From positions 1 to 33,723 of the IMG/VR virus record IMGVR_UViG_3300020473_000007: 33,723 nucleotides of DNA. The stretch is one strand, 5' to 3'. This DNA is from a virus. The translations under genes were made by a program, and so were the position numbers. This document shows, in pieces, positions 3,475-33,723 of the stretch. Numbering within the stretch: the stretch's first letter is position 1; each line of letters begins with the position of its first letter. Below the pieces are notes generated by a model, which worked only from the letters and a program-made list of their open reading frames with translations, did not search any database and was not told the DNA's origin.

Positions 3475-3864
3475 TTACTTCAAGTCTATGTTTATACTGA
3501 AATCACCCTTAACCATATGTTGGTGCTTATCTGGTGCTTTGAATCCTGCCCTATCAAGTATATCCTTACTTGCTTCAAGTTGTACATACTCTGATTTCGC
3601 ACCTGAACATAAATCAAGTAACCTTGATTGTGCTTTAACTGCACTCATCCCCAAGTTATGTTGTATCTGTTCAAACATATACTGTTGTACCTTCGGATTT
3701 CGTAGCATACGACTTGCACTTACTCTGGAACTATTCCCCTTGTATCCTGCGAGTTTTGACGCTTCTGTTATCGTACATCCTGTAGATACGAGAGTATCAA
3801 CTAACTTCTTTGCTTTCGGTGTGATTTCATTGGTTTCTTTCATTGAAACGGACATACTCTTCAT
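3475..3864 (-). CDS. terS: Terminase small subunit (probable)
   Basis: This protein recognises viral DNA and loads TerL for packaging. The product of up to 129 residues has an N-terminal helix-turn-helix-like segment at about residues 17-55 (ITPKAKKLVDTLVSTGCTIT, EASKLAGYKGNSSRVSASRM, LRNPKVQQYM), the usual TerS pattern of repeated short helices. A helical oligomerisation part and an unstructured acidic/basic tail follow. The most upstream ATG (3864) overlaps a predicted -10 box, so the real start may be ATG 3855 or 3843 (MKETNEI...); none has a good Shine-Dalgarno sequence. It is the first gene of the minus arm, followed by 272 non-coding bases. The call rests on fold pattern and position. 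Confidence 0.75.
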   Translation of the reverse strand: MKSMSVSMKETNEITPKAKKLVDTLVSTGCTITEASKLAGYKGNSSRVSASRMLRNPKVQQYMFEQIQHNLGMSAVKAQSRLLDLCSGAKSEYVQLEASKDILDRAGFKAPDKHQHMVKGDFSINIDLK

Positions 3865-3890
3865 ATATCAGCTACTGTTGAAAAAGTCAA
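3862..3890 (-). promoter_or_regulatory. Candidate sigma70-type promoter for the minus (late/packaging) arm
   Basis: On the minus strand TTGACT (3890-3885) is followed after exactly 17 bases by TATATG (3867-3862). The -35 lies in a small palindrome, GTTGACTTTTTCAAC, that could be an operator or hairpin. The -10 overlaps the first possible terS ATG, which would force use of a downstream start. Box match is partial (5/6 and 4/6), so this is a prediction only. Confidence 0.4.
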
Positions 3891-3914
3891 CATACCTGAT
3901 TGCGTATGACGGGA

Positions 3915-3969
3915 TTGTTAGAAAAACCACTAGTGGTAAGATTTGTAAAGAACAAATCTTTTCTAACAA
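3915..3969. other. Three-way-junction structured element
   Basis: Nested complementarity is perfect here. An outer stem TTGTTAGAA (3915-3923) pairs with TTCTAACAA (3961-3969). Inside are the palindrome ACCACTAGTGGT (3926-3937) and a second hairpin AAGATTTG (3938-3945) with CAAATCTT (3953-3960) around a 7-base loop. Folded, this is a compact three-way junction, possible in RNA of either strand or in extruded DNA. It has no T-run and no ORF. The outer stem carries the TTAGAAAA motif also found in the 3337-3394 hairpin on the other side of terS. Confidence 0.65.
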
Positions 3970-4025
3970 CCACTTACATACACTTTATGTTTAATTAAAG
4001 ATTTAACGGAGCTTCGCACATTATA

Positions 4026-4068
4026 ATGACAAGGACTCTTTCTAAAGAAACTGTCCTTACGCAGTCAT
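4026..4068. other. Stem-loop in the divergent control region
   Basis: ATGAC (4026-4030) pairs with GTCAT (4064-4068) and AAGGAC (4031-4036) with GTCCTT (4053-4058). Inside, TTTC (4039-4042) pairs with GAAA (4047-4050). The hairpin lies between the three-way junction and the long inverted repeat; the flanking bases up to 4140 hold no ORF that I can support. Confidence 0.5.
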
Positions 4069-4145
4069 ATTTCTTCGGTGCTTACGCTCATTATATTTGA
4101 CTAGCTATCCTGCAAAGACTCCTCACGAATTGATGGATGTATTGT

Positions 4146-4174
4146 TTGAGTCAAGTTATTTGTTTTAGTATTAG
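4146..4174 (+). promoter_or_regulatory. Candidate sigma70-type promoter for the plus (early) arm
   Basis: TTGAGT (4146-4151) and TATTAG (4169-4174) are separated by 17 bases. Transcription would begin near 4181, so the transcript would include most of the long inverted repeat that follows. The -10 and spacer are themselves part of the left arm (4153-4178). The match to consensus is modest and the assignment rests on spacing and position. Confidence 0.4.
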
Positions 4175-4475
4175 TTGCGTAAACATTGATGTCCTTCCGT
4201 TGTTAAGATTAATGGAAATTATCGAAGCTATAGATACCTACAAATATTTGAGAGGTAGGAAAGCCACCCCTTTATATAAAGGTAGGGGTGGTGGCTTACA
4301 TTTTGTGCCGTCAGCTAACGGCAGTAGCCAACTCCCTCCGGTTTCCTCCATACCGGCCGATCCTAAAACCTCCGGGAGTTGCAAATTTTGTAGGTATCTA
4401 TATTTCGTAATTTCGCTATTAATCTTAACAACGAAAGGACATAACAATGGCAACTAATACTAAAACAAATAACTT
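4153..4475. ncRNA. Long inverted repeat with multi-hairpin core (candidate structured RNA or origin)
   Basis: The left arm 4153-4244 is complementary to 4387-4475 in blocks: 4153-4178 with 4450-4475 (26/26), CATTG 4184-4188 with 4445-4449, 4189-4213 with 4418-4442 (24/25), AAATTA and CGAA in 4216-4226, and 4229-4244 with 4387-4402 (16/16). That is about 81 pairs. The 142-base core holds three stems: AGCCAC...GTGGCT (4262-4296) around the palindrome CCTTTATATAAAGG; TGCCGT/ACGGCA (4306-4323); and CAACTCCC/GGGAGTTG (4329-4381) with an inner CCGGT/ACCGG. The core is GC-rich against an AT-rich genome. The right arm contains AAAGGA (4434-4439), the ATG (4447) and about nine codons of the first early gene. 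Function unknown. Confidence 0.75.
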
Positions 4476-4977
4476 AACACTTCTTGATAATATTAATTCA
4501 TTTGTTGATTTTATGGATTGTTCACATATTCCTCCGACATCTGATGGTTCTTCATATAGTGATGGAACATATGATGTTGAATGGAATGTTGATAATATCT
4601 TATATTATGGTGGTTCGTTATCATATACTATAAATCAAATTGAAGCTAAAAAATCTTATTATGACAATTTGACTTATAGATTAAATAATATGAATCAAGA
4701 TACACACACCGATTCAGATATTGAAGATACAAAAGAAAAGATTGCATCTGTAGAACCTGTTATCTTTAACCTTTCTAAAATGGAAGCGTTACAACAAAGA
4801 TTATTTTACGCATTTGTTGGACGTCATATTGGAATTGAAATTGGAGATAATACTTCAATTCAAAATTTAGTTAAAGATGTTAGAAAATATTTAGATTCTA
4901 AAAAAAGAAAAAATATGGAATCTAAAAATTCTAATAAGTTTGATATTGATTTAAATCAAACTGTTACTCTTAAATAA
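4447..4977 (+). CDS. First early gene, unknown 176-residue protein
   Basis: The family is not recognised. The 176-residue product is rich in Asn, Asp, Ser and Lys, without a membrane segment or a known catalytic motif. It has a helical middle (INQIEAKKSYYDNLTYRLNN...) and a basic stretch near the end (KYLDSKKRKNMESKNSNK). The start ATG follows AAAGGA at 4434-4439. Both, and roughly the first nine codons, lie in the right arm of the long inverted repeat, so translation could be controlled by folding. An intrinsic terminator 10 bases after the stop makes it a single-gene unit. Position suggests an early host-takeover or regulatory protein; this is inference. Confidence 0.8.
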   Translation: MATNTKTNNLTLLDNINSFVDFMDCSHIPPTSDGSSYSDGTYDVEWNVDNILYYGGSLSYTINQIEAKKSYYDNLTYRLNNMNQDTHTDSDIEDTKEKIASVEPVIFNLSKMEALQQRLFYAFVGRHIGIEIGDNTSIQNLVKDVRKYLDSKKRKNMESKNSNKFDIDLNQTVTLK

Positions 4978-4986
4978 TATTAACTT

Positions 4987-5025
4987 ATTCCCTCTAGTCT
5001 TAATTGATTAGAGGGAATTTTTTTG
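4987..5025 (+). terminator. Intrinsic terminator after the first early gene
   Basis: ATTCCCTCTA (4987-4996) pairs perfectly with TAGAGGGAAT (5009-5018) around a 12-base loop, and a run of seven T (5018-5024) follows directly. This is the clearest rho-independent terminator in the window. It separates the 4447 gene from the downstream early genes. Confidence 0.92.
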
Positions 5026-5085
5026 TACTTTCTTTTGAAAAAGAAAGATACCAAAGAAAACCATAACTTTAGATTGGAGCATATA

Positions 5086-5265
5086 ATGGCATTTCGTTAT
5101 CATCTTATTTTGTTTTCAGTATTCATATATTCGTCTATAGTAGTCATAGATGGTTGGCATAAAAGTGAATTTGAATTCTGGACATCACTCATATACTTTT
5201 GTACATACATCTCAGTATACGGTGTTGAATTAATAAAGTATCTATCTTCAAATGAAAGACCTTAA
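5086..5265 (+). CDS. Small two-helix membrane protein (59 residues)
   Basis: The ATG at 5086 has GGAG 8 bases upstream and gives MAFRYHLILFSVFIYSSIVV. Two hydrophobic helices are visible, at about residues 5-23 and 33-53 (FWTSLIYFCTYISVYGVELI), with a short polar turn between and a polar SSNERP end. The frame extends to a TTG at 5023, but that start lies in the terminator T-run and is unlikely. The protein is probably in the inner membrane. Early phage membrane proteins of this size often block superinfection or alter the host envelope; no specific role can be shown. Confidence 0.65.
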   Translation: MAFRYHLILFSVFIYSSIVVIDGWHKSEFEFWTSLIYFCTYISVYGVELIKYLSSNERP

Positions 5266-5514
5266 TTGGTTTTTCATTTGCGGATTTATATTTTAAAATG
5301 TGCAAACTTGATGACCTCACTATCATCAGCACTAAGCAAGGCATCAATGCACCCGTAATGCAGGACACACAAATCCTTCCTCATATATTGTCCTGCACTA
5401 TGGTTGCATAGCCCGACTAGTTGCTATAAAACTGACTAGCAATGTGCAACTATGTCAAGACTAAATAGGTTTGAATCCTATGCTTGGCAAAAGGTTTTTG
5501 GAATTTGTACCTAC

Positions 5515-7612: not shown

Positions 7613-7993
7613 ATGGATAAATATAATGTTGACTTAAAATTTGATCGCCAAACTTTAAAGTTTGGTAAGTCGCCAAACACGTGCGAGTTCATTGATTTTC
7701 ATTTAGATAACCCAAAAGTTTGGGAACTGTACCTACAGTTTGCATCTGATATGGTACATCACGGACACAAAAAATTATCAAGTGAAATGCTTATCAATCG
7801 TGTTCGTTGGGAAACAATGGTTAATACTACTGACAAACAATTCAAAATAAATAACAATCACAAACCTTATTATGCAAGACTCTTGCTCTCAACACAAAGG
7901 TTTAAGAATACAAAGTTCCTTGAAGTTAGACAAAGCTGTGCAGATGACTTATCATATTCCGAATGTGAAATATTGATGAGTCCATATGTATAG
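7613..7993 (+). CDS. Conserved phage protein of the FxxFHxxNP/KINNNxxxYYARL type, unknown function
   Basis: This 126-residue protein has the order CEFIDFHLDNPKVWELYLQF, GHKKLSSEMLINRVRWETMV, then KQFKINNNHKPYYARLLL. I recognise this pattern from a widespread small phage and mobile-element family that often sits beside nucleases and HTH replication genes, with no established activity. The start uses the same leader AAAGGAGTATATTATG as gene 5615. It overlaps the HTH gene downstream by 8 bases, so the two are probably co-translated. Confidence 0.75.
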   Translation: MDKYNVDLKFDRQTLKFGKSPNTCEFIDFHLDNPKVWELYLQFASDMVHHGHKKLSSEMLINRVRWETMVNTTDKQFKINNNHKPYYARLLLSTQRFKNTKFLEVRQSCADDLSYSECEILMSPYV

Positions 7994-8468
7994 AATTGCA
8001 GTCAAAGAATTACAAGAAAGACGGCAACACCTAGGATTATCTTCGCAAGAAGTTGCAGAAAAACTAGGTGTTTCCGATTCGTTAGTATCGCTTTGGGAAT
8101 GTGGTAAAAAGCAACCAAGCAGCACTATGTTTTTTAATTGGATAACTGTGCTTGGCTTTAACTTTATTCTCAATGTACATCAATCTCAAATCCCAAAAAC
8201 TTTTGAGCCAAGCTACGATACAAAGCGTTGGATCACAGAAGAATTTGGAGAAAGGTATAACTATGAGCAAGAACTTAAAATCTTTATCAACCATTATCGG
8301 GCAGGTGCGACAACTAAATCGGATTGGCAGTACGCTTTCCGATCTTGGTTATTGCGTTCCAAGAAATTCCAATCCAATACAACTCAAACCACCGAGGGTA
8401 CTGCAGAACGCCGTGAGCGTATTAACAATGTCTTTGCTATTAGCAATAAAACAAAACAAAGTAGATGA
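7986..8468 (+). CDS. XRE-type HTH protein with replication-initiator-like C-terminus
   Basis: This is a 160-residue protein. Residues 6-60 form an XRE/Cro-type helix-turn-helix (LQERRQHLGLSSQEVAEKLG, VSDSLVSLWECGKKQPSS). The C-terminal part at about residues 100-130 has F-NHYRAGATTKSDWQYAFRSW-L, matching the F-xY-A-G-xxxDW-xxxFRxWL pattern seen at the end of many phage replication-initiation proteins. An HTH plus this element suggests an origin-binding protein acting like lambda O, and it could also repress transcription. The last 206 bases are shared with the next gene in another frame. The HTH call is firm; the replication role is inference. Confidence 0.75.
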   Translation: MYRIAVKELQERRQHLGLSSQEVAEKLGVSDSLVSLWECGKKQPSSTMFFNWITVLGFNFILNVHQSQIPKTFEPSYDTKRWITEEFGERYNYEQELKIFINHYRAGATTKSDWQYAFRSWLLRSKKFQSNTTQTTEGTAERRERINNVFAISNKTKQSR

Positions 8469-11723: not shown

Positions 11724-12110
11724 TTATGGTTTTTTGTTTTTGTTTTGCCATTGTTGTCCAATTTTTTCTGCACTACGCCCAACAGTATAACCACCGACAC
11801 CAATCATTATAATATCTAATAATGAGTTTTGCACGGACTCAGGAATGTTAGGTGCAGTAAATCCAAACCAATGTGCTACCATTAGTGCGGCAAACAATAA
11901 CATCATTATTGGTCGCCAACTTCTTTGCAACCACGTACCTTGTGCTTCTAATTGTATAACAGTTGCGGCGGCTTCTATTTCTTTTAGATCGCCTGTAATA
12001 ATTTTGTGCTGTAACTCAGCTTTAATTTTTTCTTTTTCTGCTTTAGATGTAATGACTTTATCTACAGTAGAAAATATTGATTTAGCTATAGGTGCAAGTA
12101 AAGGTAACAT
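11724..12110 (-). CDS. Holin of the GTA_holin_3TM type
   Basis: This 128-residue inner-membrane protein forms the lesions that release the cell wall hydrolase. Residues 18-58 are a charged helical segment (KVITSKAEKEKIKAELQHKI). WLQRSWRPIMMLLFAALMVA (60-79) gives the first clear membrane helix and LLDIIMIGVGGYTVGRSAEK (97-116) the second. The LQRSWRP and GVGGYTxGRSxEK motifs are those I know from the gene-transfer-agent holin family. It overlaps the SleB hydrolase gene by one base, as lysis partners often do. Confidence 0.87.
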   Translation of the reverse strand: MLPLLAPIAKSIFSTVDKVITSKAEKEKIKAELQHKIITGDLKEIEAAATVIQLEAQGTWLQRSWRPIMMLLFAALMVAHWFGFTAPNIPESVQNSLLDIIMIGVGGYTVGRSAEKIGQQWQNKNKKP

Positions 12111-12511
12111 TAGATTATATTATTGTAAAATTTGTGATCGCCAATAGTAACTACAGGCGTTTGGCCTTGTGCCCATTTAGGCATAATGTTTGTAGTGTGA
12201 TAATGCGTTGACCCTTCTGTATTATCTTTTATCTTTTCTTCTAATACCAAATAAGCAAGAGCAAACATTTTTAAATAAACTTCATCTACCATTGGTAAAT
12301 TCTCCATCTTTTCTTTATTAGGATCACCTTCATTCCAACAACTAAACTGCCATTCTTTTAAACAAACTTCTTTTGGTGTGTTGCCATACCAACGTCTAGC
12401 CTCGGCTCTATTTTTTATAACACTAGCTACAGCAATCTGACCACTAGTATCTTGGTTGCGAGATTCACCCCACATTGTCTTTGCCATTATGTCTAAATCT
12501 TCAAACGTCAT
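12110..12511 (-). CDS. SleB-type cell wall hydrolase (endolysin)
   Basis: This 133-residue hydrolase of the SleB/Hydrolase_2 family degrades peptidoglycan at the end of infection. The signatures are LAKTMWGESRN-type with the catalytic Glu16, GQIAVASVIKNRAEARRW (24-41), CLKEWQFSCW (50-59), STHYHTTNIMPKWA (101-114) and IGDHKFY (123-129). No signal peptide is present, so it needs the adjacent holin for release. It is a single domain without a wall-binding module, usual for Gram-negative hosts. It overlaps both neighbours by 1 and 4 bases. Confidence 0.92.
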   Translation of the reverse strand: MTFEDLDIMAKTMWGESRNQDTSGQIAVASVIKNRAEARRWYGNTPKEVCLKEWQFSCWNEGDPNKEKMENLPMVDEVYLKMFALAYLVLEEKIKDNTEGSTHYHTTNIMPKWAQGQTPVVTIGDHKFYNNII

Positions 12512-12966
12512 ATAAACTTTAATAACTTTAACTCATAATATATAAAAATCAAGAGTCCTGCAATAGCTAATGATGCAACTATAATTGTTTTCCTGCGTTC
12601 TTTTTCTTGTTCTAGTCGTTTTAACTCTCTTTTTTTCTCAGCACGGGCACTAGCAATTTCACCTTGTAATCGTTCCCATTGACCCGGTGAACCATATAAT
12701 AAAAAGATTTCACGCAACTGATCACGCATACGAGCAAGTTCTTCTTTACGAAGATGGGCTTCTATGGCTGTTTGTTCTACCGAACTAAATTTACCAAACA
12801 AGGATCTTCCTTTTTTTTCTGCGTGTATTTCAATGTTTGCTTCACCTATAGCCCACTTTGATATATACCCACTTAGACTAGACAAGTCTTTACCTACCTG
12901 TATACCTTTCATAATTACAGAATGAGCAGTTTTAACTGCGGCAAATGCTGAAAGCGGATCAATCAT
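12508..12966 (-). CDS. Coiled-coil protein with C-terminal membrane helix
   Basis: The 152-residue product begins MIDPLSAFAAVKTAHSVIMK, a start I have seen in marine podovirus proteins of unknown function. Residues 65-125 are a long charged coiled coil (RKEELARMRDQLREIFLLYG, ASARAEKKRELKRLEQEKER), and the end TIIVASLAIAGLLIFIYYEL is a membrane helix. A membrane anchor plus coiled coil beside holin and hydrolase resembles a spanin-like or late membrane component, though the anchor is C-terminal. It is joined TAATG to the gene upstream and overlaps the hydrolase by 4 bases. Confidence 0.7.
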   Translation of the reverse strand: MIDPLSAFAAVKTAHSVIMKGIQVGKDLSSLSGYISKWAIGEANIEIHAEKKGRSLFGKFSSVEQTAIEAHLRKEELARMRDQLREIFLLYGSPGQWERLQGEIASARAEKKRELKRLEQEKERRKTIIVASLAIAGLLIFIYYELKLLKFI

Positions 12967-27597: not shown

Positions 27598-28215
27598 TTA
27601 ACTACTGCTACTTGGTACAACTGCTCTAATACCATCTGCAGTTCCTCTATTTCTTACTTCTATGAGTAAACTTGTATTTAATTTTCTTGTAGTTTGTGTT
27701 TGTGATTCTGTACTACGTGCTAGTAATAATTGTTGTTGAGCACGTCTTTGATATAGTGTAGACAAATTATCATTTCTTGCTATTGCACCTGCAAATAAAC
27801 TAGCAAGTTCAAATACAAGGGCTTGTACAAAATAGTCTGGTAATTCTGCTTCGTGTGGTTGATATGTGTAATGACATACGACAGTATCGTTAGTGCTTGT
27901 ATTTGTAAATAATTCTTCGTTGTATCTATCAAATACAATAACATTATCCGAAACTGTTAATGTGTGTATTAATATTGCATCATTAGGTATTTGATATGCA
28001 GAATCCCATTTATCTAAAGGATTGGTCGCAAGTTTAGAAAGTTGTGCTTGTTTAGAAGCAAATCTCCATCTAGCTTTTGTTAACATAGAACGTAATGTTG
28101 TTTCATATAGTTGATTGGCAACCTTGCTTTCTGTTGTATTGTCAGTAAAAGAAGCAATAGTGTTTGCTCCAATTAAAACTAATCCTTGATTACATATATC
28201 TATTTTACTTACCAT
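27598..28215 (-). CDS. Tail tubular protein A (gatekeeper), gp11-like
   Basis: The 205-residue protein, close to T7 gp11 (196), forms the ring between portal and nozzle and carries the fibres. Signatures are ICNQGLVLIGANTIASFTDN, TLRSMLTKARWRFASKQAQL and the YQIPNDAILIH motif, all usual for this family. The C-terminal helices (SLFAGAIARNDNLSTLYQRR) pack against the portal. It begins the tail module after a strong 28228-28245 hairpin that separates it from the head genes. Confidence 0.93.
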   Translation of the reverse strand: MVSKIDICNQGLVLIGANTIASFTDNTTESKVANQLYETTLRSMLTKARWRFASKQAQLSKLATNPLDKWDSAYQIPNDAILIHTLTVSDNVIVFDRYNEELFTNTSTNDTVVCHYTYQPHEAELPDYFVQALVFELASLFAGAIARNDNLSTLYQRRAQQQLLLARSTESQTQTTRKLNTSLLIEVRNRGTADGIRAVVPSSSS

Positions 28216-32847: not shown

Positions 32848-33723
32848 TTACCTCCTTCTTTCATAAATGTTTTTAGGTTGACCACTAAAAACATCAAAAT
32901 TACGTTTCGCTATTATAGGTTTACTATATTTCGTTCCAATCGTCAACGACCTACCCTCACCTGCACCTAATAATAAATATTGAAGTGCATCGTGAATGTG
33001 TGAAAATCTGTTCTTATTTGGGCGTTCATCATAGCGTTCTCCCGATACTTGTAGTCTTCTATAGTGATATCCTCCTGCAAATCCTCTAATTAAATTAATG
33101 CAATTTTTATCTATAAGAATACCAGATTCACCATCTACCATTCTTGTTAATGTAGCATTTACACTTTCTAATCGAAGTGTTACATCATTACTTGGTGCGG
33201 GTCGGGCAGTTATACCTTTACCTCTTAATATTTGAAAAGGTGTGTTTTCATCTGTTTGTACTCTATGATCACCGGCAGGATCGCCAAATATATAAAATGG
33301 TCTAGGGTGATACTTTGCCATAGATTGTTTCATTAAGTCAGAAAACTTTACTATACCCATATCTTCAGCTACAAGTTCTTCTAATACTATCCATCTTGTT
33401 CTTATTTTTTGTGCAAATACACAGGCGGGAGTTAATCCAAAATCTATACCCATATAGATTGGTAAGGATTCGGCAATAGCTAATTCACCTTTAGCTACGT
33501 GTACATCTTGTCTAAATGCTTCATAAACAGGTTTGCCATCTTCTACCTGCCCAAGTTTATTTAATACATATACATCTATCCACGATTTTGTTTTTCCTCT
33601 AATTATATTTCTATAATAATTCTGTGTAAGGTTGTTTTGATTTTCCGATTGATTATAATTTTTATATTCAACCACCTGATTGTTTTTGTCTTTAACTTCC
33701 TCCATAGCAGGTGGTTGATTAAA
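32848..33723 (-). CDS. terL: Terminase large subunit, C-terminal nuclease part (continues from base 1)
   Basis: This part holds the headful nuclease of the packaging motor. From the internal Met at 33705 (residue 217 of the joined protein) it runs 285 residues. The RNase-H-like acid residues are visible in YMGIDFGLTP (Asp 304), IFGDPAGDHR (Asp 358) and FSHIHDALQYLL (Asp 455). Upstream of 33705 the frame enters the terminal repeat and continues to 707 in the circular molecule. The Met at 33705 is therefore not the gene start. The length of 501 residues and both domains are intact. Confidence 0.95.
   Translation of the reverse strand, partial: FNQPPAMEEVKDKNNQVVEYKNYNQSENQNNLTQNYYRNIIRGKTKSWIDVYVLNKLGQVEDGKPVYEAFRQDVHVAKGELAIAESLPIYMGIDFGLTPACVFAQKIRTRWIVLEELVAEDMGIVKFSDLMKQSMAKYHPRPFYIFGDPAGDHRVQTDENTPFQILRGKGITARPAPSNDVTLRLESVNATLTRMVDGESGILIDKNCINLIRGFAGGYHYRRLQVSGERYDERPNKNRFSHIHDALQYLLLGAGEGRSLTIGTKYSKPIIAKRNFDVFSGQPKNIYERRR
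33647..33723. repeat. Terminal direct repeat, right copy (77 bp)
   Basis: Exact copy of bases 1-77, with the same terL reading frame on the minus strand. Removing one copy gives the 33,646-base unit. Confidence 0.95.

Follow-up and report, generated by a model that had tools for sequence, protein, structure and literature searches.

Long hairpins are already known from the leaders and origins of phages. In the first early leaders, such as the lambda N leader and T7 R0.3, RNase III sites extend over tens of base pairs. Transcripts of the T4 e/soc type reportedly carry short hairpins, in which the ribosome site is hidden in the read-through mRNA and not in the mRNA started at an internal promoter. 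Hairpin or cruciform origins and single-strand initiation sites present long imperfect hairpins in control regions, where shape prevails over sequence, and the protelomerase site telRL of N15 is a long palindrome in a circular phage map. The locus described here, which lies in a viral stretch of 33,723 nucleotides (the window, that is, the whole stretch of DNA analysed), resembles each of these in part. As in the lambda N leader and T7 R0.3, the first early gene has a hairpin leader, although theirs are far shorter, and as in the T4 e/soc type the ribosome site is within one inverted-repeat arm, but the window has no conspicuous internal promoter and the arms of its relatives reach 600 bp. With the hairpin and cruciform origins it shares the long imperfect hairpin, the one in the window being far longer. 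Both telRL and the window repeat are long palindromes; however, the latter has a 142-nt core, and nothing in the ORF list of the window was recognised as a protelomerase-like protein.

The left arm of this giant inverted repeat (4150-4244, non-coding in the window) is complementary to the right arm (4387-4478), and the two enclose a GC-rich core (4245-4386) with three smaller stems at 4250-4304, 4306-4323 and about 4327-4382; none of these features is assigned to a strand. Since 85 of the 88 aligned positions of the arms are Watson-Crick pairs, the approximately 81 paired bases given in a preliminary description understated the repeat, and a repeat search recovers blocks of 29 nt (97%), 25 nt (96%) and 16 nt (100%) within the arms. 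The right arm contains the ribosome site (4434-4439), the ATG (4447) and about 10 codons of gene 1, rather than the nine counted before. Folded as RNA, the hairpin reaches -153 kcal/mol on the plus strand and -159 kcal/mol on the minus strand (z -15.9 and -18.1, respectively), and none of 100 shuffles matched this stability. In sliding folds it is the top structure of the 33.7-kb window, with a chain of 101 bp against 65 at the next locus, and in a whole-window scan its inverted-repeat score is 62, while the runner-up, which adjoins it, scores 29.5. This runner-up is a weaker inverted repeat around gene 1 (4539-5374), and the second strongest helix of the window, the 65-bp folded chain at 27838-28008, lies in a coding region.

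The core is indeed GC-rich, at 50.7% compared with 33.5% for the genome (99.9th percentile of 142-nt windows), and it was from this richness that selection on structure had first been suggested. As such evidence it is weak: folded alone, the core gives z -2.4 on the plus strand (2 of 200 shuffles equally stable) and z -1.4 on the minus strand (15 of 200). The suggested selection on pairing is supported by the relatives described below, many of which keep a hairpin without sequence similarity and in which paired changes exceed the controls.

Inverted repeats are sometimes assembly errors, and this had been raised as a possible objection. The hairpin is, however, present with 0 differences in four IMG/VR loci (L003-L006; L numbers designate the loci of relatives) from two other metagenome contigs, while an isolate phage, Hodr, has a hairpin of its own and further relatives show the same feature with other sequences. 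Chance is disfavoured by z values below -15, and the arms are imperfect. An assembly artefact is thus ruled out, and artefact and chance together have a negligible probability. A 77-bp terminal direct repeat (1-77 and 33647-33723) was also noted, as assemblers leave on complete circular or permuted genomes.

A covariance-model search of the window against Rfam gave no match above the gathering score, and only two sub-threshold matches in 3865-5100 (E 0.28 and 0.46); membership of any Rfam family was accordingly rejected, and the preliminary description, too, had named no known RNA of such a layout. A transposon or MITE was rejected as well, the repeat being single copy in the genome, and no transposase was recognised in the window's ORF list. 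Four direct-repeat families occur in 3860-5500, none of which forms an evenly spaced array at the hairpin, although short or diverged sites can escape such a search. The GC skew changes sign near the repeat, where the transcription divergence also falls.

According to the ORF list, genes to the left of the repeat are directed leftward and those to the right rightward, so that the repeat does sit where the two transcription arms diverge. On the right, gene 1 (4447-4977, plus strand), the first early gene, encodes 176 aa with no Pfam or PHROG match at E 0.01, and its lone-sequence structure model is of low confidence (pLDDT 52); a rightward intrinsic terminator (4987-5018, plus strand) follows directly. 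On the left, the leftward operon begins with the gene for the terminase small subunit, TerS (3475-3864, minus strand; Terminase_2, 5.9e-10; phrog_51, 8.4e-14), at whose start lies a leftward sigma70-like promoter (3862-3890, minus strand; TTGACT, 17 nt, TATATG). This promoter is overlapped by a perfect dyad, GTTGAAAAAGTCAAC, at 3877-3891. The form GTTGA-N5-TCAAC has its sole match in the window here, while chance alone would give about 1.6 matches with one mismatch; its right half, TCAAC, is present in 9 of 9 aligned sequences and the whole dyad in 5 of 9. The dyad is a possible operator of the TerS promoter. In addition, profile matches in Pfam and PHROG indicate that the window encodes a RecE/YqaJ-like exonuclease and a RusA-like junction resolvase, as well as a helix-turn-helix protein (7986-8468, plus strand) with a DnaT-like or replication-initiation part (phrog_1408, E 7.6e-7; its Pfam DnaT match, E 0.008, is below the cut-off), which makes it a candidate initiator. 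Among the listed ORFs of the window, none was recognised as a polymerase.

The nearest named phage found is Pelagibacter phage EXVC031P Hodr (OQ414635), whose portal protein and TerS share 78 and 70% identity, respectively, with those of the window. Its divergent region between TerS and the first rightward gene (12037-12860) likewise holds a giant hairpin (-130 kcal/mol, z -8.3, 0 of 100 shuffles), and this gene 1 too is without Pfam or PHROG match. The hairpin is larger than that of the window, covers both ribosome site and ATG, and lies in the region of the strongest structure of Hodr, with a 143-bp chain compared with 60 at the next locus in sliding folds. The two hairpins share no similarity detectable by blastn, nor does Hodr gene 1 significantly resemble window gene 1 (at E 0.01). 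Unlike in the window, the repeat of Hodr continues into the TerS codons, so that TerS and gene-1 codons are partly reverse complements over about 95 nt (approximately 11941-12036 and 12530-12635). The record OQ414635 does not annotate the hairpin as a feature.

Relatives were collected by three TerS-anchored scans, each keeping the best 80 of more than 560 relatives, which left 226 loci, all of them with TerS (226/226). With the window and Hodr added, upstream DNA of at least 450 nt was available for 194 sequences; 120 were non-redundant, and blastn overlap at the repeat grouped these into 61 families. Each 1100-nt region was scored by alignment with its own reverse complement, and 199 stretches from 36 of the same loci served as controls (95th percentile 20, 99th percentile 23.6, maximum 38). 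Among the 120 sequences, 86 score above 20 and 57 above 38, where alignments that cross the centre were treated slightly differently in control and survey. At least one member exceeds 23, near the control 99th percentile, in 35 of the 61 families. An earlier set comprised 36 families; 11 of their representatives score beyond the control maximum and 19 beyond the 95th percentile (Mann-Whitney p 1.6e-14), and perfect hairpins of at least 7 bp occur at 2.1 per kb in the region compared with 0.3. The length of the folded-helix chain, a blunt statistic, placed 11 of these 36 representatives beyond the control maximum and 15 beyond the 95th percentile; the symmetric inverted-repeat alignment was adopted in its place. 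The preliminary description had named homologous phages without the repeat or without covarying pairs as evidence against its proposal: this applies in part, since no member exceeds 23 in 26 of the 61 families. Whole genomes were scanned for the window, Hodr and the more distant MEP301, and in the last the giant repeat is absent genome-wide (best score 28).

Some other observations were made in this region. Upstream of TerS, L013, L014, L016 and L017 have several smaller hairpins and no strong giant repeat, and by eye a stem with a run of T that resembles a rightward terminator. A GCTTCGC loop motif seemed enriched and one-sided in orientation (10 vs 1 in 36 regions of 700 nt; 10 vs 4 in 216 kb of control) and was rejected; its one-sidedness is weaker in the 61 families (13 vs 4 families).

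The length of the arms varies greatly across the relatives, from about 45 to about 600 bp. A start could be assigned in 33 hairpin families, and the right arm covers the ATG of gene 1 in 24 of them and ends before it in nine. Over up to 4 members per family, right arms that stop short of the ATG end at -16 to -56 (L186 and L087 lie further off), and other ends fall at +25 to +90 or at approximately +120 to +245. Extents were first taken from alignments with weak gap penalties, which allow chance extension, and the long ones were therefore retested with stiffer gaps and 100 shuffles. In eight relatives (L115, L103, L125, L155, L207, L208, L142 and L150) the right arm runs through the entire gene, to 31-55 nt beyond its stop codon, with z of 53 to 110 outside the start region. 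On the other side, the repeat enters the TerS codons in Hodr (-95), L184 (-130), L181 (-140) and L166 (-251), with z of 18 to 35; in these four, two divergent protein genes are partly reverse complements. On retest the long extents of L179 (z 5.3), L104 (4.3) and L173 (3.0) were weak and the outer extension of L106, L136, L068, L210, L119 and L157 was not significant, while the repeats of the window, L091 and L102 are shorter and do not reach that far out. Consequently, the earlier proposal that folding would hide the start of gene 1 fits the common configuration, but hiding the start codon is not the whole point, because nine families end before the ATG, others run hundreds of bases past it and some enter the TerS codons.

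The gene-1 proteins themselves are diverse, 105 of them falling into 26 clusters, the biggest of 41. That of L037 is modelled as a helical bundle (pLDDT 88) without a significant PDB match (best E 0.028). The C-terminal part of the gene-1 proteins in alignment A5 (profile positions 97-126) resembles the phycobilisome linker CpcN over 30 residues (E 3.6e-7); no stretch passes singly, and the match may be due to chance.

Is the pairing itself kept up? In two family alignments (A2 and A3), 40 of 192 and 56 of 157 pairs have changed on both sides, whereas shuffles give 20.2 and 36.6 (none of 500 reaching the observed count) and a slid-alignment control at most 11 and 40; the structures were derived from the same sequences as these counts, which inflates the cells scored as paired. 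Further pair types exceed the shuffles in A2 (110 vs 98, 2 of 500 as high) and show no excess in A3 (59 vs 56.2, 110 of 500 as high). Between L018 and L019 the coding arms contain 25 compensated pairs where 3.2 are expected, mostly as scattered singles and doublets rather than tracts, and between L142 and L150 five lie in the leader, against 0.1 expected, and none in the coding arm. A clear excess is lacking for the coding arms of L115 and L103 (24 vs 15.1) and for L125 and L155 (17 vs 24.3), where the alignments are poor. Over 21 closer pairs of sequences, 1808 base pairs are unchanged, 315 are broken on one side and 76 are compensated. In the 23 listed close pairs, some of which are one contig under two identifiers, the arms differ at 1.7% of sites and the rest at 3.4%. 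After same-contig repeats and pairs with less than 2% change outside the arms were dropped, eight diverged close pairs were left, and five of them (L061/L064, L108/L109, L113/L146, L159/L168 and L129/L152) exhibit strong constraint on the arms, for example 0 of 160 sites changed vs 45 of 878 in the surroundings, or 1 of 140 vs 92 of 885. Such constraint is absent from L007/L037, L063/L065 and L142/L150. In this neighbourhood, L063 looks recombinant relative to L064 and L065, with arms from two sources and a pairing score of 52 compared with 82 in L064. Judged from these comparisons of sequence, self-complementarity seems to be kept while the sequence turns over, so that shape rather than sequence would matter. 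The hairpin sequence is not kept, which makes it unlikely that a packaging element, one of the functions first proposed, would be recognised here by its sequence.

Such coupled changes might also arise with no function at all. By fold-back template switching during replication, one arm could be copied onto the other, and a repeat that arose by accident would then stay matched and perpetuate itself. This requires no selection, and it explains the variable arm length, the matching within unlike sequence types and the coupled changes, besides the three diverged close pairs without arm constraint. Copying alone, however, should not lower the rate at which the arms diverge, as is seen in the other five pairs, and should leave tracts instead of the scattered sites of L018 and L019. 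It also has to account for a repeat between TerS and gene 1 in 35 of the 61 families (the relatives were searched only upstream of TerS, and the fixed place is thus partly built into the search) and for one such place per complete genome in the two scanned genomes that have it. We regard a functionless palindrome as improbable.

Selection on the fold of a single RNA should show as tolerance of that RNA's G-U pairs throughout the arms. When all arm pairs are taken together, A:C exceeds G:T on the plus strand (116.7 vs 36.3, family-weighted; 27 families vs 2, with 6 ties), and the minus-strand RNA is the stabler in 32 of 35 families (Wilcoxon 1e-8). The order of minus-strand mismatches, G-U, U-U, G-A, A-A, G-G, C-U, A-C, C-C, resembles the order of RNA mismatch stability. 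These features at first seemed to point to a structured leftward RNA, either separate or the 5' leader of the terminase operon, in which the giant hairpin would be functional and which would be antisense to the start of gene 1. The same lean is found in the families that end before the ATG (16.2 vs 6.5; 5 for, 0 against, 4 ties), and 12 of 20 family representatives have a leftward promoter-like site scoring at least 9.5 either within the right arm or to its right (our own count, with no control). Sites to the right of the repeat have no consistent position over 35 families, though, and the window has none there; the left flank yielded no leftward terminator either. In close pairs G>A equals C>T (39 vs 36), which speaks against a leftward RNA, though T>C is above A>G (65 vs 28).

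More decisive is where the asymmetry lies. In the 24 start-covering families, the far leader has A:C/G:T ratios of 0.7 and 1.4; the value is 2.3 between -50 and -20, rises to 6.0 and 7.0 between -20 and +50, and is 1.6 and 1.7 further on. By our own arithmetic, third-position rates of TerS predict about 1.27, and a ratio of about 2 would follow from nothing more than the richness in A of the right arm near the start. Counted by family, the A:C excess has 16 for, 0 against and 8 ties in the zone -20 to +15, compared with 13 for, 9 against and 2 ties in the far leader. Away from the start no RNA strand is clearly favoured, because the ratios of 0.7, 1.4, 1.6 and 1.7 are near 1.27; most of the arms would thus have little strand preference, as DNA or arm-to-arm copying would give. 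The leftward RNA was consequently dropped as the main selected molecule, its asymmetry in start-covering families being limited to roughly -50 to +50 of the gene-1 ATG, and we consider it quite unlikely. In the start region, the mismatch ratios show strand-specific selection, at the level of RNA or of the strand. We read it here as a message-strand duplex loosened where ribosomes bind, although a minus-strand RNA acting there would look alike.

The message strand offers another explanation, in which a transcript started to the left of the repeat would fold and hide the ribosome site of gene 1, and translation would proceed only from starts inside the repeat or after RNase III cleavage. As in the T4 type, the ribosome site is paired in the predicted folds of both the window and Hodr, and the pairing at -20 to +15 is tight, being 85% Watson-Crick with G-U almost absent on the message strand; the ATG is covered in the 24 families given above. 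A rightward intrinsic terminator within 110 nt after gene 1 in 19 of 32 families makes rightward transcription through the gene likely, and single promoter candidates lie to the left of the repeat in L009 (TTGAAA, 18 nt, TATAAT, strong, score 12.7) and in the window (TTGTTA, 16 nt, TAAGAT, weak, score 8.4). However, no rightward promoter scoring at least 9.5 was found upstream of or inside the repeat in any of the 20 family representatives (L009 is not among them), and no position stands out for gene 1 over 35 families. Nor is there a sigma70-like promoter between the arms in the window, whose three best rightward sites of this type all lie outside the core and right arm. The sole recurring promoter is the leftward one at TerS, which is strong in the Hodr relatives. 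Moreover, nine families end before the ATG, a ribosome site could be hidden without arms as long as 600 bp or pairing with TerS codons, and A:C in place of G:U around the start loosens the very hairpin that would be needed. This explanation is therefore rather unlikely.

A fold-back element acting at the level of DNA, in replication or recombination, with the hiding of the start codon as a side effect or second use, is in our view plausible, at somewhat below an even chance. The comparisons establish the self-complementarity, its place, its upkeep across unrelated sequences and its independence from what the arms encode. A DNA role is favoured because no recurrent promoter that would give a transcript over both arms was found over the families scanned, and because genes for an exonuclease, a resolvase and an initiator-like protein are present. 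It also fits arms of any length that pass through leader, gene 1, terminator, TerS promoter or TerS codons (35 of 61 families). The region between the leftward operon for terminase and virion proteins and the first rightward gene would be kept as a long imperfect palindrome, and either DNA strand, when single-stranded or supercoiled, would be able to form a hairpin or cruciform, 45 to about 600 bp long. Most likely, we infer, the repeat would serve as DNA as a place where recombination-dependent replication starts or is repaired, and fold-back copying between the arms may help them to stay matched. On this view, the hairpin that covers the gene-1 start in the mRNA would be a by-product, or would have a second use, and would be trimmed near the ribosome site. 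Against the DNA-level element stand the 6- to 7-fold excess of A:C over G:T at -20 to +50 around the ATG, the stabler minus-strand RNA, which could mean a leftward RNA, the 26 families without a strong repeat, the three diverged close pairs without arm constraint, the further pair types of A3, the two further pairs without a clear excess of compensation, and a fixed place that is partly built into a search of the relatives limited to the DNA upstream of TerS.

It is possible, and we suggest it tentatively, that the lineage selects reverse complementarity itself, whereby TerS and gene 1 are pulled into partial reverse complements, and that an element of up to 600 bp defined by shape alone rewrites the first early gene as it evolves. 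No description of the feature was found among the matches listed in the open-licence PMC full-text literature; as far as could be checked in that part of the literature, the lineage-wide, sequence-free version of up to 600 bp that enters both flanking genes is a new variant. SAR11 phages are among the most abundant marine viruses. A long self-complementary element that is kept without its sequence being kept is unusual, and it would evade ordinary homology searches. The element can be tested in an isolate, namely Hodr on HTCC1062. The repeat may mark the replication or the early-late switch of a whole phage group, and may help to explain the orphan look of the first early genes of these phages.
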